Part shown: positions 3,428-37,037 of the stretch, piece by piece
How the letters are laid out: each line of letters opens with the position of its first letter
Numbering within the stretch: the stretch's first letter is position 1
Source: an uncultured Alphaproteobacteria bacterium
Lineage (GTDB): Bacteria > Pseudomonadota > Alphaproteobacteria > HIMB59 > GCA-002718135
NCBI GenBank assembly: GCA_902612825.1
Contig: CACMET010000010.1
Coordinates: 1-49,733 of the forward strand
Direction: 5' to 3'
Length of the DNA stretch: 49,733 bases
The notes under the pieces: generated by a model
Database searches by the model: none
Seen by the model: only the letters and a program-made list of their open reading frames with translations
Told to the model about the DNA's origin: nothing
Program-made: the position numbers and the translations under genes

Positions 3428-6400
3428 TCAAGATATTTCTAAAGAATAATCTAAAATTTTTGATTTATTTAGTTCATCAAGTTTTTTAAATGATTTTATG
3501 GAATATTGATTAAAATCAAAGTTAATCAATTTTTGATCAACTGTGATAAAAAGTTCAATAAAATTATTTGTATTACTTGTATATTTTTTTTCAAAAATCT
3601 TATCTCTCAATTCAATTATGTTACTGATATTTGAGTAGATATTAAATTTATATCTATTTTTTGCAAAAAAAGAGTCTAAAGAAACTATATCCCTTATAAT
3701 AAAACGAGAATCTGAGTTATTTTTTACAATATCGATTGTGAAAACTAATAAATTACCCTCTTTTAAAATGGGTCGATATTTGTATAAATTTTCACTAAAT
3801 ATTGTTAATTCAAACTGATAACTAATTTCTGAAACTGTAATAAAAGCATATTTTTTTCCATCTTTATTTGATCTCTCTTTGATATCCAAGATTGCACCAC
3901 AGACCTTCATAGAATTAATATTAATATTTTCATAACAATCTTTAAATGAATAAATATTTTCTAATTCAAAAAATTTTCTTGGATAATGATTAAGTGGATG
4001 ATCAGAAAAGTAAAATCCAATGACTTCTAATTCATTAGAAAGGATTTCTGAATTTTTCCATTCTTTATAATTTTGATTAAATAAATTTTTATCATCAAAA
4101 GAAATCTCATTATCTTCAAAAAGCATATCCTGATTTAGAAATTTTTCTCCTCCGAATAATTCAACAAATTTTGTAACATTATTAAATAATTTTGATCTAT
4201 TCATTTCTAAGCTGTCAAATGCTCCTGCTTGTATCAATTTTTCAAGCTGTCTTTTATTTATTACTTCCTTGGAAACTCTATTCATAAAATCAATGATACT
4301 TTTAAATTTGCCATTTTTATTTCTTTCATCAACCATGCTAGAAATTGATTTTAAACCTACACCTTTAATTGCTGCCAATCCAAATCTTATTGATTTTAAG
4401 CTGTCATTTATTTCAATAGAAAATAAAGGATCAGAAAAATTTATATCTGGTTTTAAAAAGTTAATATTTAATCTTTCTATTTCTTGTTTTAGTAAAATAA
4501 TTTTTTCTGTTCTATCTATAGAATAGTTTAAAGTTGCTGTAAGAAATTCGTGAGGAAAGTTTGCTTTTAAATAAGCAGTTTGATAAGATATTAAAGCATA
4601 TGCTGCTGCATGACTTTTATTAAAACCATACCCTGCAAATTTATCAACTAAATCAAATATTTTTGAAGCTTCTTTTTTATTAATATTATTTTGAACTGCA
4701 CCTTCTATAAATCTTGTTTTTTGCATATCCATTTCTTTTTGAATTTTTTTTCCCATTGCTCTTCTTAACAAATCTGCTTCTCCTAAAGAATAATTTGATA
4801 AAACTTGTGCAATCTGCATTACTTGTTCTTGATAAACAATAATTCCATAAGTTTCTTTTAAGACGTCTTCTAACATAGAATGAAGATATTTGATTTCTTC
4901 ACGTCCATGTTTTCTATTACAAAAAGAAGGAATATTATCCATTGGCCCAGGTCTAAACAAAGCAACTACAGCAATTATTTCTTCAAATCTATCGGGTTGT
5001 AGTTGGCGAAGGACGCTACCCATACCATTACTTTCTAATTGGAATATTCCTACTGTATCGCCCTTACTTAACTGATCATAGGTTTTTTTATCATTAAGAG
5101 GAATTTCATTTATTAAAAAATCTTTATTTTCTCTAACTATTAATTTTATGCAATCATCGATAATGGATAATGTAGTTAAACCAAGAAAATCAAATTTTAT
5201 TAAACCTGCCTCTTCAACATATTTCATTGAAAATTGTGTAGCATTCGTATTAGTATTTTGATCTTTGTATAAAGGAACTACTTTAGATAACTTTTCATGA
5301 CCAATTACAACTCCAGCGGCATGAGTTGATGCGTGTCTATGAGTTCCTTCAATTTTAAGACTGACATCAATAATATTTGAAATTCTTTCATCACTGCTTA
5401 TCCTTTCTTGCAAACTTCTTTCAGATTTAATAGACTCACTTAAAGTAAGTGGATTTGAAGGATTAAAAGGTATCAATTTAGCAAAGGAATCTACTTCTCC
5501 ATACGGAACTTCTAAAACCCTACCAATATCTCTTACCGCAGCTCTTGATGCTAGAGTACCAAATGTAATTATATGAGCAACACATTCACTTCCATATTTA
5601 TTATTTACATACTCAATAACTTCATCTCTTCTAGTTTGACAAAAATCTATGTCAAAATCTGGCATTGACACTCTTTCTGGATTTAAGAATCTTTCAAATA
5701 ATAATTCATATTCTAATGGATCTAAATCAGTAATCCCTAAGCACCAAGCTACTAAACTACCTGCACCTGATCCTCTTCCGGGACCAACAGGAATGAATTG
5801 TGCTTTAGCCCAATTAACAAAATCTGCTACTATTAAAAAGTATCCTGCAAAACCCATTCTAATAATTATTTCATTTTCATATTTCAATCTATCACTATAA
5901 ATTTGTATATTCTTAATATTCTTTTCTTTTATTTTTTTTTCAAGTCCCAGTTCTGAGGATTTTAATAAAAAATCTTCTGCTGATAAATTTAAATCATTTT
6001 TAAATTCAGGTAATTGTGGTTTTGTTGATTCAGGAAAATAATTACAAGATAGAGAAATATTTAAATTATTTTGTATTATCTCAGGAATATCTTCAAAATT
6101 TGAATACATTTCATCATTTGACTTAAAATAAATATTTTCATTTGAAGTATTTCTTTGAGAATTATTAATTGTAGATTTTTGAGCAATACATAGTAATGCA
6201 TCATGAGCTGAATAATCATCTTTATTTGCGTACTTAATATTATTTGAACCAATGAGGGGTATATCAAATTCCTTTGATAAATTAATAAATTCTTTTTCAA
6301 AAATATCTATATTTTGATCATTTATTCTTTGAATTTCAAAAAGAAAATTTTGCTTAAAAACTTTTTTAAAATTACCTATTAATTGAATGATATCTTTTTT

Positions 6401-33864: not shown

Positions 33865-35022
33865 ATGGAAGTTTCAAAAAGAATATTTAATTTAGAAACA
33901 GAAACAGCATTCTCTATTCTTGCTAAAGCTAATGATCTTGCAGCCAAAGGTAAAGATATTATCAATTTGGGAATTGGACAGCCTGATTTTCCAACACCAA
34001 TTAATATTCAAGAAGCTGCAATTAAAGCAATTAAAGATGGTTATCATGGATACACTCCATCAAATGGTATACCTGAATTACGAGAAGCAATTTCAGAGTT
34101 TGTATTTAACAAATACAAATCAAATATTAAACCAGAAAATGTTTTAATAACTCCAGGAGGTAAGCCTGTAATTTTTATTTCAGCATTATTGTTAGGTAGT
34201 GAAGATAGAGAAATAATTTTTCCTGATCCAGGATTTCCAATTTATAGATCTATGATTAAATATAGCGGTGCAAAAGCAGTACCATTAAAACTTTCAGAAA
34301 AAGATAATTTCGAAATTAATACTGAACAATTAAAAGAATTAATTTCTGATAAAACAAGTTTGATAATAATAAATAATCCAAACAATCCAACAGGATCATA
34401 TATGAATAAGAAAAAAATTACTGATCTTGTTAATTTACTAGAACAGCACCCAAACGTCTCCATTTTAAGTGATGAAATTTATAGTAATATTATTTTTAAT
34501 AATGAACAAATGCCATCATTATTAGAATACGAAAGTATAAGAGATAGACTAATAGTTCTTGAAGGATGGAGTAAAACATATTGTATGACTGGATGGAGAT
34601 TAGGTTGGAGTGTATGGCCAGAAAATTTAATTGAACATGCTAACAAAATATGTGTCAATTACAATTCCTGCGCTACCTCAATTTCGCAATATGCAGGATT
34701 AGAAGCAATAAAAGGTTCTCAGAAAGAAATAACAAAAATTGTTAGTGAATTTGAAAAAAGAAAAGAGTACGTTTTTAATGAATTAAATAAATTAGAAAAA
34801 ATTTCTTGTTTTGAACCAGGTGGCGCTTTTTATGCATTTCCCAATATTTCAAAAACTGGATTAAGTGGAAATAAATTTTCAGAAGTAGCACTTCAAGAAA
34901 AAGGTGTTGCTTTAGTTCCAGGTTCAAGTTTTGGTGATAATGCTAGTGAATTTGTTAGAATAAGTTTTGCTAATTCTCTAGAAAACATTAAAGAAGCAAT
35001 TAAAAGATTATCTACAATATGA
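33865..35022 (+). CDS. Class I PLP-dependent aminotransferase (aspartate aminotransferase-like)
   Basis: A fold-type I aminotransferase of 385 residues, probably acting on aspartate or a related amino acid with 2-oxoglutarate. GIGQPDFPTP near 36-45 and TPGGKPVIF mark the N-terminal region, and NPNNPTG is at 171-177. Asp203 and Tyr206 in SDEIYSNI contact PLP, and the Schiff-base Lys237 lies in WSKTYCMTGWRLGW. The substrate-carboxylate Arg is in FVRISFANS near the end. The sequence resembles the AspB-like subgroup; exact substrate cannot be read. Its stop overlaps the glnB start by 4 bases (ATGA), so it is translationally coupled to PII, a link to nitrogen metabolism. Confidence 0.9.
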   Translation: MEVSKRIFNLETETAFSILAKANDLAAKGKDIINLGIGQPDFPTPINIQEAAIKAIKDGYHGYTPSNGIPELREAISEFVFNKYKSNIKPENVLITPGGKPVIFISALLLGSEDREIIFPDPGFPIYRSMIKYSGAKAVPLKLSEKDNFEINTEQLKELISDKTSLIIINNPNNPTGSYMNKKKITDLVNLLEQHPNVSILSDEIYSNIIFNNEQMPSLLEYESIRDRLIVLEGWSKTYCMTGWRLGWSVWPENLIEHANKICVNYNSCATSISQYAGLEAIKGSQKEITKIVSEFEKRKEYVFNELNKLEKISCFEPGGAFYAFPNISKTGLSGNKFSEVALQEKGVALVPGSSFGDNASEFVRISFANSLENIKEAIKRLSTI

Positions 35023-35360
35023 AAAAAATAGAAGCAATCATCAAGCCCTTTAAGCTGTCTCAAGTAAAAGAAGCGCTCCATGAAATTGGAATATCTGGAA
35101 TGACTTTAATTGATGTCAAAGGTTTTGGAAGACAACGGGGATCGACTGGAGGCATGGAGGCTAATGACGTTTATGATGATGAATTTTTAGCCAAAATGAA
35201 ACTAGAGGTAATAGTCGAAGATAATCAAGTCGATGAAGTTATAGAATCAATAAAATCTAGCGCATACTCGGGAAAAATTGGAGATGGTAAGATTTTTGTA
35301 TCAAATATAGAGCAAGTTATAAGAATAAGAACTGGTGAAAAAGACAGTGATGCTGTCTAA
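35019..35360 (+). CDS. glnB: Nitrogen regulatory protein P-II with a divergent T-loop
   Basis: A PII signal protein of 113 residues (E. coli 112). The core is normal: MKKIEAIIKPFKL at the start, the KGFGRQ segment at 34-39 leading into the T-loop, the B-loop SGKIGDGKIFV that binds ATP, and the C-loop VIRIRTGEKD. The T-loop is not normal. E. coli has GHTELYRGAEYMVDF, while here residues 41-56 read GSTGGMEANDVYDDEF, one residue longer and acidic. Tyr46 is replaced by Met, and the only candidate for uridylylation is Tyr52. Family assignment is firm; whether GlnD can modify it is doubtful. It follows the aminotransferase with overlap and precedes the glnA riboswitch leader. No glnD or amtB is in the window. 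Confidence 0.93.
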   Translation: MKKIEAIIKPFKLSQVKEALHEIGISGMTLIDVKGFGRQRGSTGGMEANDVYDDEFLAKMKLEVIVEDNQVDEVIESIKSSAYSGKIGDGKIFVSNIEQVIRIRTGEKDSDAV

Positions 35361-35403
35361 TTTTTCTTTACTTTTGTTTAAAAGCAAGTAATTAAATAAT
35401 AAT

Positions 35404-35450
35404 CGTTCAACTCTTTTAGAGTCGGAAGTAGGCATTGTGCCGAAGGAACG
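35404..35450 (+). promoter_or_regulatory. Glutamine riboswitch aptamer 1 (glnA RNA motif)
   Basis: P1 is CGTTC (35404-35408) with GAACG (35446-35450). P2 is ACTCT (35410-35414) with AGAGT (35418-35422). The conserved internal segment CGGAAGTA is at 35423-35430. P3 is GGCA (35431-35434) with TGCC (35438-35441), followed by GAAG (35442-35445) closing into P1. This matches the glnA glutamine aptamer as I know it from cyanobacteria and marine metagenomes, including the invariant CGGAAGTA and GAAGGAACGC stretches, and it sits upstream of glnA. Confidence 0.9.
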
Positions 35451-35468
35451 CATGCAAAAGTTATAAAT

Positions 35469-35518
35469 CGTTCAACCTATTTTATTAGGTCGGAAGTAAG
35501 CCAAAAGCTGAAGGAACG
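35469..35518 (+). promoter_or_regulatory. Glutamine riboswitch aptamer 2 (glnA RNA motif)
   Basis: A second copy with the same architecture. P1 is CGTTC (35469-35473) with GAACG (35514-35518), P2 is ACCTA (35475-35479) with TAGGT (35486-35490), and CGGAAGTA is at 35491-35498. P3 is AGC (35499-35501) with GCT (35507-35509), followed by GAAG (35510-35513). P2 and P3 differ from copy 1 by compensatory changes (ACTCT/AGAGT to ACCTA/TAGGT; first P3 pair G-C to A-T) while the binding segments are identical, which is strong evidence for selected structure. Tandem copies allow a steeper response to glutamine. Confidence 0.9.
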
Positions 35519-35559
35519 CGCATCAAAAGCAGATTTCATAACTAGAGCATGATTTAACC

Positions 35560-35586
35560 GGGTAACGCTGGATAGCATACCCTTTT
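35560..35586 (+). promoter_or_regulatory. Candidate expression-platform hairpin of the glnA riboswitch
   Basis: Between aptamer 2 and glnA, GGGTA (35560-35564) pairs with TACCC (35578-35582) and GCT (35567-35569) with AGC (35574-35576) around the loop GGAT. The stem is followed by TTTTGTT. It resembles a small intrinsic terminator 20 bases before the glnA start, and it lies just before the ribosome-binding site TAAGGAG (35594-35600). How the aptamers would switch it is not evident, as I find no clear alternative pairing with the P1 strands. The stem is seen; the regulatory role is inferred. Confidence 0.4.
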
Positions 35587-35606
35587 GTTGAAGTAAGGAG
35601 ATAGAT

Positions 35607-37037
35607 ATGAAATTAAAAAGCTCGACTCCAAAAGATTTAATGTCAGAAATCAAAGATATGGACATTAAAATGGTTGATATGCGCTTTACTGATATACCAG
35701 GAACAACTCAACATTTTACAATACCAATTAAATTTTTAGACGAAGATATATTTTCTGACGGACTTGGTTTTGATGGATCTTCAGTAAGAGGTTTCCAAGA
35801 AATTCAAGACAGTGATATGATTGTTTTGCCAGATGCAACGACTGCATACATTGATCCATTTTTTTCAGAAAAAACTCTAGCATTACATTGTAATATTAAA
35901 GATCCTGTAACTTTGGTTGATTATAGTCGTGATCCAAGAAATATTGCTAAAAAAGCTGAAGCCTATTTGAAATCATCTGGAATCGGAGACACAGCATTTT
36001 TTGGTCCAGAAGCAGAATTTTTTGTTTTTAATAATGTTCAGTTTGATTCGGGATCAAACTTTGCATTTCATGAAGTTGATTCTGTTGAAGGTACATGGAA
36101 TAGTGGTGCTGATGAAAATCCGAACCTAGGACATAAACCTAGACATAAAGAAGGTTATTTTCCTTTACCACCAGTAGATACTCTTCAAGATGTAAGAACT
36201 GAAATGGTAATGACAATGCAAGACATTGGTCTTACTGTTGAAGCACATCACCATGAAGTTGCAACAGGTGGACAATGTGAAATTGATTTAGAATTTTCGC
36301 CTTTACTAAAAATGGCTGATGATATGATGAAATATAAGTACGTTGTTAAAAATGTTGCTAGACAACATGGAATGACAGCTACATTTATGCCTAAACCTTT
36401 ATTCGAAGATAATGGTTCAGGTATGCACGTTCATCAAAGTGTTTGGAAAGACGGTGACACATTAATGTATAAAGAAGGAAACTATGCTAACCTAAGTGAT
36501 TTAGCCCTAAATTATATTGGCGGTATACTTAAACATGCACCTGCTCTTTTAGCTTTTTGTGCGCCTACTACTAATTCTTATAAAAGATTGGTCCCAGGCT
36601 TTGAGGCTCCGGTGAACATTGTTTATTCTCAAAGAAACAGAACTGCATCTGTTAGAATTCCTGCTTATTCTCAAAGCCCTAAAGCAAAAAGAATGGAATT
36701 TAGATGTCCAGATCCAAGTGCAAATCCATACCTAGCATTTTCAGCTATGTTAATGGCAGGATTAGATGGAATTAAAAATAAAATTAATCCTGGTGATCCA
36801 ACTGATATAAATCTTTATGCTGCGAGTGAAGAGGTTTTATCTAAAATTCAATCCACGCCTGGATCTTTAGCTGAATCTCTTGAAGCTCTTGAAAAAGATC
36901 ATGCATTTTTATTAGAGGGTGATGTATTCACCAAAGATGTAATTGAAACTTATATTAGCTATAAAAAAGAGAGTGAGGTCGACCCTATTAATATTAGACC
37001 TCATCCACACGAGTTTAAACTATACTACGACGTGTAG
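35607..37037 (+). CDS. glnA: Glutamine synthetase type I
   Basis: GS makes glutamine from glutamate, ammonia and ATP as a dodecamer. 476 residues. Key blocks are [13 protein letters not shown] (about 51-63), [25 protein letters not shown], the ATP-site segment [28 protein letters not shown], and [10 protein letters not shown]. The start follows TAAGGAG with a 6-base spacer. The adenylylation Tyr (Tyr404) is present, but the usual NLYDLPPEE reads NLYAASEEV. The segments [19 protein letters not shown] and [17 protein letters not shown] resemble cyanobacterial-type enzymes more than the rhizobial or rhodobacterial GlnA sequences I know. It is controlled by the tandem glutamine riboswitch upstream and ends at a strong terminator. 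Confidence 0.97.

Follow-up and report, generated by a model that had tools for sequence, protein, structure and literature searches.

The glnA RNAs, with their aptamer class and tandem arrangement, have been in print since 2010, when they were described ahead of PII, GS, GOGAT and ammonium transporter genes, some of them in tandem (Weinberg 2010, PMC2864571). A later account gives 157 glutamine doublets and 4 triplets and classes them as pseudo-cooperative (PMC9481103), whilst a 2018 review calls the class restricted to cyanobacteria, describes the GS, PII and amt associations as apparently restricted to environmental samples, and presents both type 1 and type 2 glutamine switches as activating on glutamine (PMC6316151). 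Marine phages, including a Pelagibacter phage, are also reported to carry glutamine riboswitches (PMC9004378). In the solved aptamer with glutamine bound, P1 takes in G23, which pairs with C60 (PMC11477058); C60 is the first base 3' of P1 in the sequence printed in PMC5393176.

The locus studied here shares the aptamer fold, conserved core, linchpin bases and downstream nitrogen genes of the type 1 glutamine riboswitch (RF01739). It departs from the tested cyanobacterial member, which controls gifB and is described as an ON switch (PMC6316151), by being paired and alphaproteobacterial and by having a platform that predicts OFF. Like the tandem glutamine riboswitches of PMC9481103 it has two aptamers in series; unlike the pseudo-cooperative class of that account, one platform seems to serve both. 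The tandem glycine riboswitch likewise joins two aptamers for one ligand to one expression platform (PMC9481103), with the differences that its aptamer belongs to another class and that cooperation in our case is presumed. To the known aptamer class and arrangement, this analysis adds a host and a conserved platform that appears to be shared. The pair sits between glnB (35019-35360) and glnA (35607-37037) in the window, by which we mean the whole 49,733-nucleotide stretch of DNA analysed, and its surroundings are laid out as follows:

35019..35360, + strand: gene for glnB/PII (113 aa), lying 5' of the leader (ORF; Pfam P-II, E 7.7e-34)
35402..35454, + strand: glutamine aptamer 1, P1 35404-35408/35446-35450 (RF01739, 64.3 bits, GA 35)
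35451..35455, + strand: CATGC, tail of aptamer 1, first base the equivalent of linchpin C60; outer strand of a proposed helix, P0 (sequence; complementary to GCATG 35547-35551)
35459..35468, + strand: AGTTATAAAT, inner strand of the proposed P0, immediately 5' of P1 of aptamer 2 (sequence; linker pairing scan)
35467..35522, + strand: glutamine aptamer 2, P1 35469-35473/35514-35518 (RF01739, 65.7 bits, GA 35)
35532..35551, + strand: putative switch element GATTTCATAACTAGAGCATG, able to pair with the linker (P0) or with the start-codon region (pairing and folding analyses)
35553..35592, + strand: spacer hairpin between element and Shine-Dalgarno (SD) sequence, core GGGTA 35560-35564/TACCC 35578-35582 (folds)
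35595..35600, + strand: Shine-Dalgarno AAGGAG of glnA (sequence)
35607..37037, + strand: glnA, type I glutamine synthetase, 476 aa (ORF; Pfam Gln-synt_C, E 3.4e-139)

The spacer hairpin shows two-sided changes in its amtB counterparts, and RNAalifold returned no consensus structure for the spacer of the glnA set. At the upstream edge of the locus, a terminator-like stem followed by a T-run lies across the final glnB codons (35342-35358); by eye, its sequence recurs in 28 of 29 glnA loci, and it may separate glnB and glnA transcription.

An earlier note, made from the letters of this DNA, had claimed two complete glnA-type aptamers ahead of glnA and proposed a covariance-model search as the check. 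Searching the whole window with cmscan against Rfam 15 returned significant, full-length RF01739 matches at 35402-35454 (64.3 bits, E 4.7e-12) and 35467-35522 (65.7 bits, E 2e-12), both exceeding the family's gathering score of 35, whilst a permissive scan of 34800-36100 produced four more matches, every one under its family's cut-off. The finer description given in the note also agrees with our alignments: the P1 stems lie 18 bases apart (35451-35468), the ligand-binding segments are identical (CGGAAGTA at 35423-35430 and 35491-35498; GAAGGAACG in both aptamers), compensatory differences occur in P2 (ACTCT/AGAGT in aptamer 1, ACCTA/TAGGT in aptamer 2) and P3 (GGC/GCC and AGC/GCT, respectively), and the downstream gene, with Pfam Gln-synt_C/N matches, is glnA. 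Type 1 membership is indicated by P1-P3 with CGGAAGUA and GAAG in both aptamers in the cmscan alignments, and by nitrogen genes, glnA and amtB, directly downstream. With numbering carried over from the published aptamer, the G23 and C60 equivalents are G 35425 and C 35451 in aptamer 1 and G 35493 and C 35519 in aptamer 2. A chance origin of the pair is excluded by the E-values and by the eight matches, in four pairs, found in the genome. The window pair is, on this sequence evidence, a set of genuine aptamers of the known class in a well-defined host family, and presumably binds L-glutamine.

The alphaproteobacterial host proposed in the note accords with the titles of two members of the genus, AG-457-C19 and AG-414-N23 (uncultured Alphaproteobacteria bacterium). 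The window's family is one that we take to be a member of the HIMB59/AEGEAN-169 order. AG-337-I02 is given as an AEGEAN-169 genus of that order (PMC8692485). RF01739 was detected in 106 of 110 genomes of the family, spanning five of its six genera. Three of the four negative genomes lacked a GlnA match at E 1e-60 and one matched residues 246-476 only, making incomplete assembly a possible reason for the negatives. In a search of relatives, 36 of 61 genomes were positive (the window's own included), all of them in the window's genus (36/37). None of 24 genomes from the order's other family (f2) carried RF01739; of four f2 genomes searched, three have glnB-glnA separated by a short, aptamer-free spacer, whilst GlnA found no match in the fourth. 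Six of 385 genomes were positive in an even sample of the class under stricter filters: two belong to the window's family and four to a single other family (f10), in which one aptamer directly precedes an ATP-grasp gene that shares 60-61% identity with this genome's own. The host assignment made in the note is useful in view of the environmental-sample restriction described for the GS, PII and amt associations in the 2018 review (PMC6316151): the glnA, PII and ammonium-transporter versions of the riboswitch gain an owner family, with 106 of 110 genomes against four others in the 385-genome class sample.

A pattern scan of named genomes gave at least 119 records, at least 37 of which had two adjacent aptamers by a stricter motif, whilst the others look like chance; the two-aptamer pattern was too loose, and both names and counts are lower bounds. 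L067 and L125 have one aptamer only, near the end of the stored stretch. A CATGC/CGTGC linker was present in at least 26 of the 37 tandem records (23 uncultured Alphaproteobacteria, one SAR116, one Pelagibacteraceae and one Proteobacteria), and the other records, at least 11, came from SAR86, other gammaproteobacteria or unspecific proteobacteria and had a different layout.

The window's assembly (1.36 Mb, 78.9% complete) carries its eight RF01739 matches as four tandem pairs, which precede glnA, an ATP-grasp operon and each of two amtB genes (Pfam). The ATP-grasp operon (L009:1138-4333, contig C3 of this genome) encodes circularly permuted ATP-grasp, Alpha-E and transglutaminase-like proteins. 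To describe the module across the genus, we combined 85 loci from 35 genomes among the matches listed with the four of the window's genome. Two aptamers were present in 84 of these 89 loci, one further locus was cut by a contig end, and in the remaining four a single aptamer precedes an ammonium transporter-like protein of a third kind, which shares about 31% identity with amtB_a in one example. Across the four operons of this set both the linker, GCATGCAA(A)AGTTAT.AAATCG, and the element behind aptamer 2 are nearly invariant. The element reads ATTTCATAACTAGAGCATG in most glnA leaders and AATTTCCATAGCTA(A/C)GCATG in most others, and its pattern matches all 84 two-aptamer leaders. P2, P3 and the spacer are variable among the same leaders.

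The note had the two aptamers arise by duplication; a local duplication at glnA is now disfavoured. Within this genome, aptamers in the same position of different operons have identities of 0.57-0.91 (first with first) and 0.64-0.93 (second with second), compared with 0.56-0.64 within a pair; a first aptamer is in most comparisons closer to its counterparts in other operons than to its neighbour, and tail 1 and tail 2 stay different from each other in sequence across all four operons. The position-specific similarity and the distinct tails together suggest, therefore, that the two-aptamer module probably predates its dispersal to the four operons, the likelier course being that it spread as a unit. 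Averaged over 110 distinct pairs, the similarities lie close together (within pair 0.709, first-first 0.719, second-second 0.776, crossed 0.698).

Several further features of these operons were observed. A short ORF of roughly 20 codons lies in the ATP-grasp leader of L009 (about 4333-4420, minus strand), with its start at CTATGG, past the spacer hairpin, and its end at the ATP-grasp start or just short of it (TGATG, TAATG); by eye, it is retained with altered sequence in relatives. A 124-aa protein with no Pfam match lies between the two amtB genes (L010:4848-5222), and 10 of 15 two-aptamer amtB_a loci have a relative upstream. The single-aptamer loci of the four f10 genomes, where the aptamer likewise stands before the ATP-grasp gene, are L365-L368. 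The ATP-grasp gene is hence tied to glutamine in two families and in this genome heads an operon with Alpha-E and transglutaminase-like genes, which hints that this peptide-ligase-like cluster serves nitrogen storage or turnover.

Absent from the earlier note was the element at 35532-35551 and its pairing with the linker. In the window, 35451-35468 and 35533-35551 can form a 15-bp helix, P0, that encloses aptamer 2. The pairings, across the leaders, are CATGC with GCATG, AGTTAT with ATAACT or ATAGCT, and AAAT with ATTT. A tail motif C(A/G)TGC together with an element ending in GCATG occurred in 131 of the 134 two-aptamer leaders that could be assigned to the four genes, and the three leaders without both were SAR86/gamma. 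For pairing analyses, these three and two ATP-grasp leaders (which failed the start-site pattern alone) were dropped and the 129 kept were reduced to 93 distinct leaders (36 glnA, 22 ATP-grasp, 17 amtB_a and 18 amtB_b, including L044, titled SAR116); having been selected for both motifs, all 93 contain them by construction. A further five two-aptamer, three three-aptamer and 13 one-aptamer leaders lay outside the leader analysis. When the whole downstream leader was scanned, the energetically best partner of the linker was the element in 93/93 distinct leaders, a result that does not follow by construction. Against shuffled downstream sequence, the mean z was -4.25 for glnA and -2.1 to -2.3 for the others, with only 35 of the 93 beating all 60 shuffles in this unbiased scan. 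P0 segments picked after inspection gave mean z of -3.8 to -5.3 and outdid every one of 100 shuffles in 68 of 93 leaders; the leaders are related, so these counts are not independent. The outer helix CATGC/GCATG was kept in 107/107 distinct composite segments, themselves selected for the motifs, once through a G-U pair, and the inner helix is incomplete in seven distinct glnA leaders, whose linker reads AGTTTGAA or AGTTAGAA. P0 thus appears to be conserved, but it hardly varies, and no covariation was found across the 107 segments.

The spacing between Rfam-defined aptamers is 10-12 nt in 58/58 genus pairs among the matches listed. Judged by sequence, a separate platform for each aptamer, as in the pseudo-cooperative class, was not found, given this 10-12 nt gap and a tail 1 that matches the element behind aptamer 2; the arrangement is, at the level of sequence architecture, two aptamers with one platform, as in the glycine kind. 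Both aptamers seem, then, to share one conserved expression platform. Neither the P0 platform nor this host was described in the literature searched, which does not establish their absence from print.

An alternative partner for the glnA element is the start region of glnA itself. Pairing of 35532-35540 with 35606-35614 and of 35542-35544 with 35602-35604 gives a 12-bp hairpin over the start codon, using largely the same element bases as inner P0, so that in glnA the two structures exclude each other. The glnA element with its own start region averaged -8.3 kcal/mol (z -2.5; 23 of 36 leaders at 5 or fewer of 100 shuffles), compared with -4.4 to -5.7 kcal/mol for the glnA element with the starts of other operons and -5.8 to -6.6 kcal/mol for other elements with the glnA start. 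The amtB elements carry UUCC against the SD, near chance (z -0.8 and -0.7; 1/17 and 2/18 leaders at 5 or fewer of 100 shuffles), the ATP-grasp element pairs with its ribosome-binding region at chance (z -0.06), and L044 has no anti-SD match. An anti-SD role of the element common to all four operons is accordingly rejected: ATP-grasp shows none, and amtB stays close to chance.

Folding without constraints gave the start-codon hairpin as the minimum-energy fold of the window's glnA leader, with P0 at a probability of 0.07. The remaining three leaders of this genome gave P0 probabilities of 0.37, 0.89 and 0.84, and two other glnA leaders 0.07 and 0.04. With both P1 stems enforced, P0 and non-P0 states differed by -5.7 to +0.2 kcal/mol on average, in energies that leave out tertiary structure, ligand and cold sea water. 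Excluding P0 under this constraint lowered the openness of the SD-to-AUG region by more than 0.05 in 30/36 glnA, 19/22 ATP-grasp, 13/17 amtB_a and 8/18 amtB_b leaders (the ATP-grasp window being the start of the short ORF and not that of the ATP-grasp gene). The closing effect was modest, with a mean openness in glnA of 0.54 versus 0.42, and there was no clear change in the other 10 of 18 amtB_b leaders. Complementing five element bases mostly removed the closing in glnA and abolished it in both amtB types, but left it in ATP-grasp. Making C60 alone unavailable reduced the mean P0 probability from 0.42 to 0.03 in glnA, 0.93 to 0.39 in ATP-grasp, 0.74 to 0.35 in amtB_a and 1.00 to 0.90 in amtB_b.

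C35451 is both the outer base of P0 and the linchpin base of aptamer 1, and its two uses are therefore mutually exclusive. We propose a two-aptamer type 1 glutamine riboswitch with one shared translational expression platform. At low glutamine, the element at 35533-35551 would be paired with the segment 35451-35468, made up of the aptamer 1 tail and the linker, and P0 would leave the ribosome-binding region free (ON). At high glutamine, C35451 would be taken for the linchpin pair with the G23 equivalent (35425) in aptamer 1, ligand-bound aptamer 2 would abut the inner end of P0, and P0 would open; the element could then pair with TAG.TATGAAATT over the start codon, stopping translation (OFF). 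The same module at the amtB genes and the ATP-grasp operon would create a small glutamine-repressed regulon. Repression by glutamine suits glnA and amtB physiologically. We give about an even chance to this shared-platform, glutamine-OFF explanation, which adds presumed glutamine binding, polarity and aptamer cooperation to the observed aptamers, module, conservation and complementarity. Somewhat short of even is the chance we would give to its fuller form, a platform gated at both ends in which C60 of aptamer 1, as the terminal base of the helix enclosing aptamer 2, would convert binding directly into helix loss, and in which copies of the whole module, placed before glnA, two amtB genes and the ATP-grasp operon, would constitute an RNA-run, glutamine-repressed nitrogen regulon of a marine alphaproteobacterial family. 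If the OFF polarity is true, the layout would be a glutamine-repressed riboswitch absent from the literature searched, and would offer a testable answer to how ammonium assimilation is controlled in a streamlined ocean bacterium.

Viral contigs provide a comparison, having two RF01739-like aptamers in series as well. From at least 120 IMG/VR stretches (loci L160-L276), at least 63 distinct two-aptamer leaders could be read. In 62 of 63 leaders among the matches listed, a helix of at least 4 pairs starts from C60 of the last aptamer, with its other arm overlapping or abutting the SD, a count made without a shuffled control. The tail and SD arms change together between types (CACCT/GGGTG, CATCT/GGAGATG and CAATCT/GAGATTG). 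In the viral layout the tail of the last aptamer can thus pair with the SD, whereas in our leaders it is the first aptamer whose tail would pair, its partner being the element behind the second; the predicted outcome is that glutamine would free the SD in the former (ON) and, through an anti-sequestering helix, act as an OFF signal in the alphaproteobacterial layout. A direct SD lock of the viral design by the tail of aptamer 2 was considered for our leaders and is not general, since a C60-start helix of at least 4 bp occurred in 29 of 93, with 19 at the ribosome-binding region.

Several observations count against the OFF reading: P0 scarcely varies, the window leader when unconstrained favours the closed state, start pairing is not general, and the glutamine riboswitches tested are ON switches. 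Precedent in particular speaks for an ordinary glutamine-ON tandem, in which P0 would be stabilized by glutamine through stacking of aptamer 2, or the aptamers would act singly, with translation switched on. Type 1 and type 2 members tested so far are described as activating genes (PMC6316151), glutamine doublets are classed as pseudo-cooperative (PMC9481103) and the viral tandems are ON-like in layout in 62 of 63 leaders among the matches listed; P0 also directly adjoins P1 of aptamer 2, and the window leader folds closed without constraints, as an empty ON switch would. We nevertheless judge this arrangement unlikely here, as the 10-12 nt between aptamers in the 58 listed genus pairs leave little room for a platform of aptamer 1, C60 of aptamer 1 is unable to serve P0 and the linchpin pair simultaneously, and a glutamine synthetase and ammonium uptake activated by glutamine would be physiologically odd.

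Control might instead be exerted on transcription, with the spacer hairpin (35553-35592) as an aptamer-controlled intrinsic terminator. The inner stem GGGTA/TACCC of the window is indeed followed by T-rich TTTTGTTG, and at least 5 T in 8 follow the hairpin in 7/17 amtB_a leaders, but the same is true after the outer hairpin in just 2/36 glnA, 0/22 ATP-grasp and 1/18 amtB_b leaders, and TTTT follows it in 2 of 93. A simple terminator scan was blank after aptamer 2, although it covered loops of 3-8 and the 13-base loop of the window stem is invisible to it, and in example folds the spacer hairpin forms in both modelled states. With such limited support for intrinsic termination across leaders, attenuation strikes us as improbable. 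The last alternative, in which some other factor (a protein, small RNA or further ligand) binds the conserved linker and element, with P0 incidental or part of its site, would accommodate the far greater conservation of these segments compared with P2, P3 and the spacer, the lack of covariation in P0 and the start-region pairing that is not general over operons. It sits poorly with the element being the best partner of the linker in 93/93 leaders, beyond shuffles on average, and with the match of the glnA element to its own start region, and we regard it as more improbable still.

Among the gammaproteobacterial leaders, those of SAR86 and others (L072, L078, L116, L130, L138, L423 and L430) share, by eye, an extra stretch behind the last aptamer, GTTAAAC..CGAGTTTRACTTC...CTGCA, which had no Rfam match in L072 and L078. 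Three aptamers in series were present in L078, L116 and L430.
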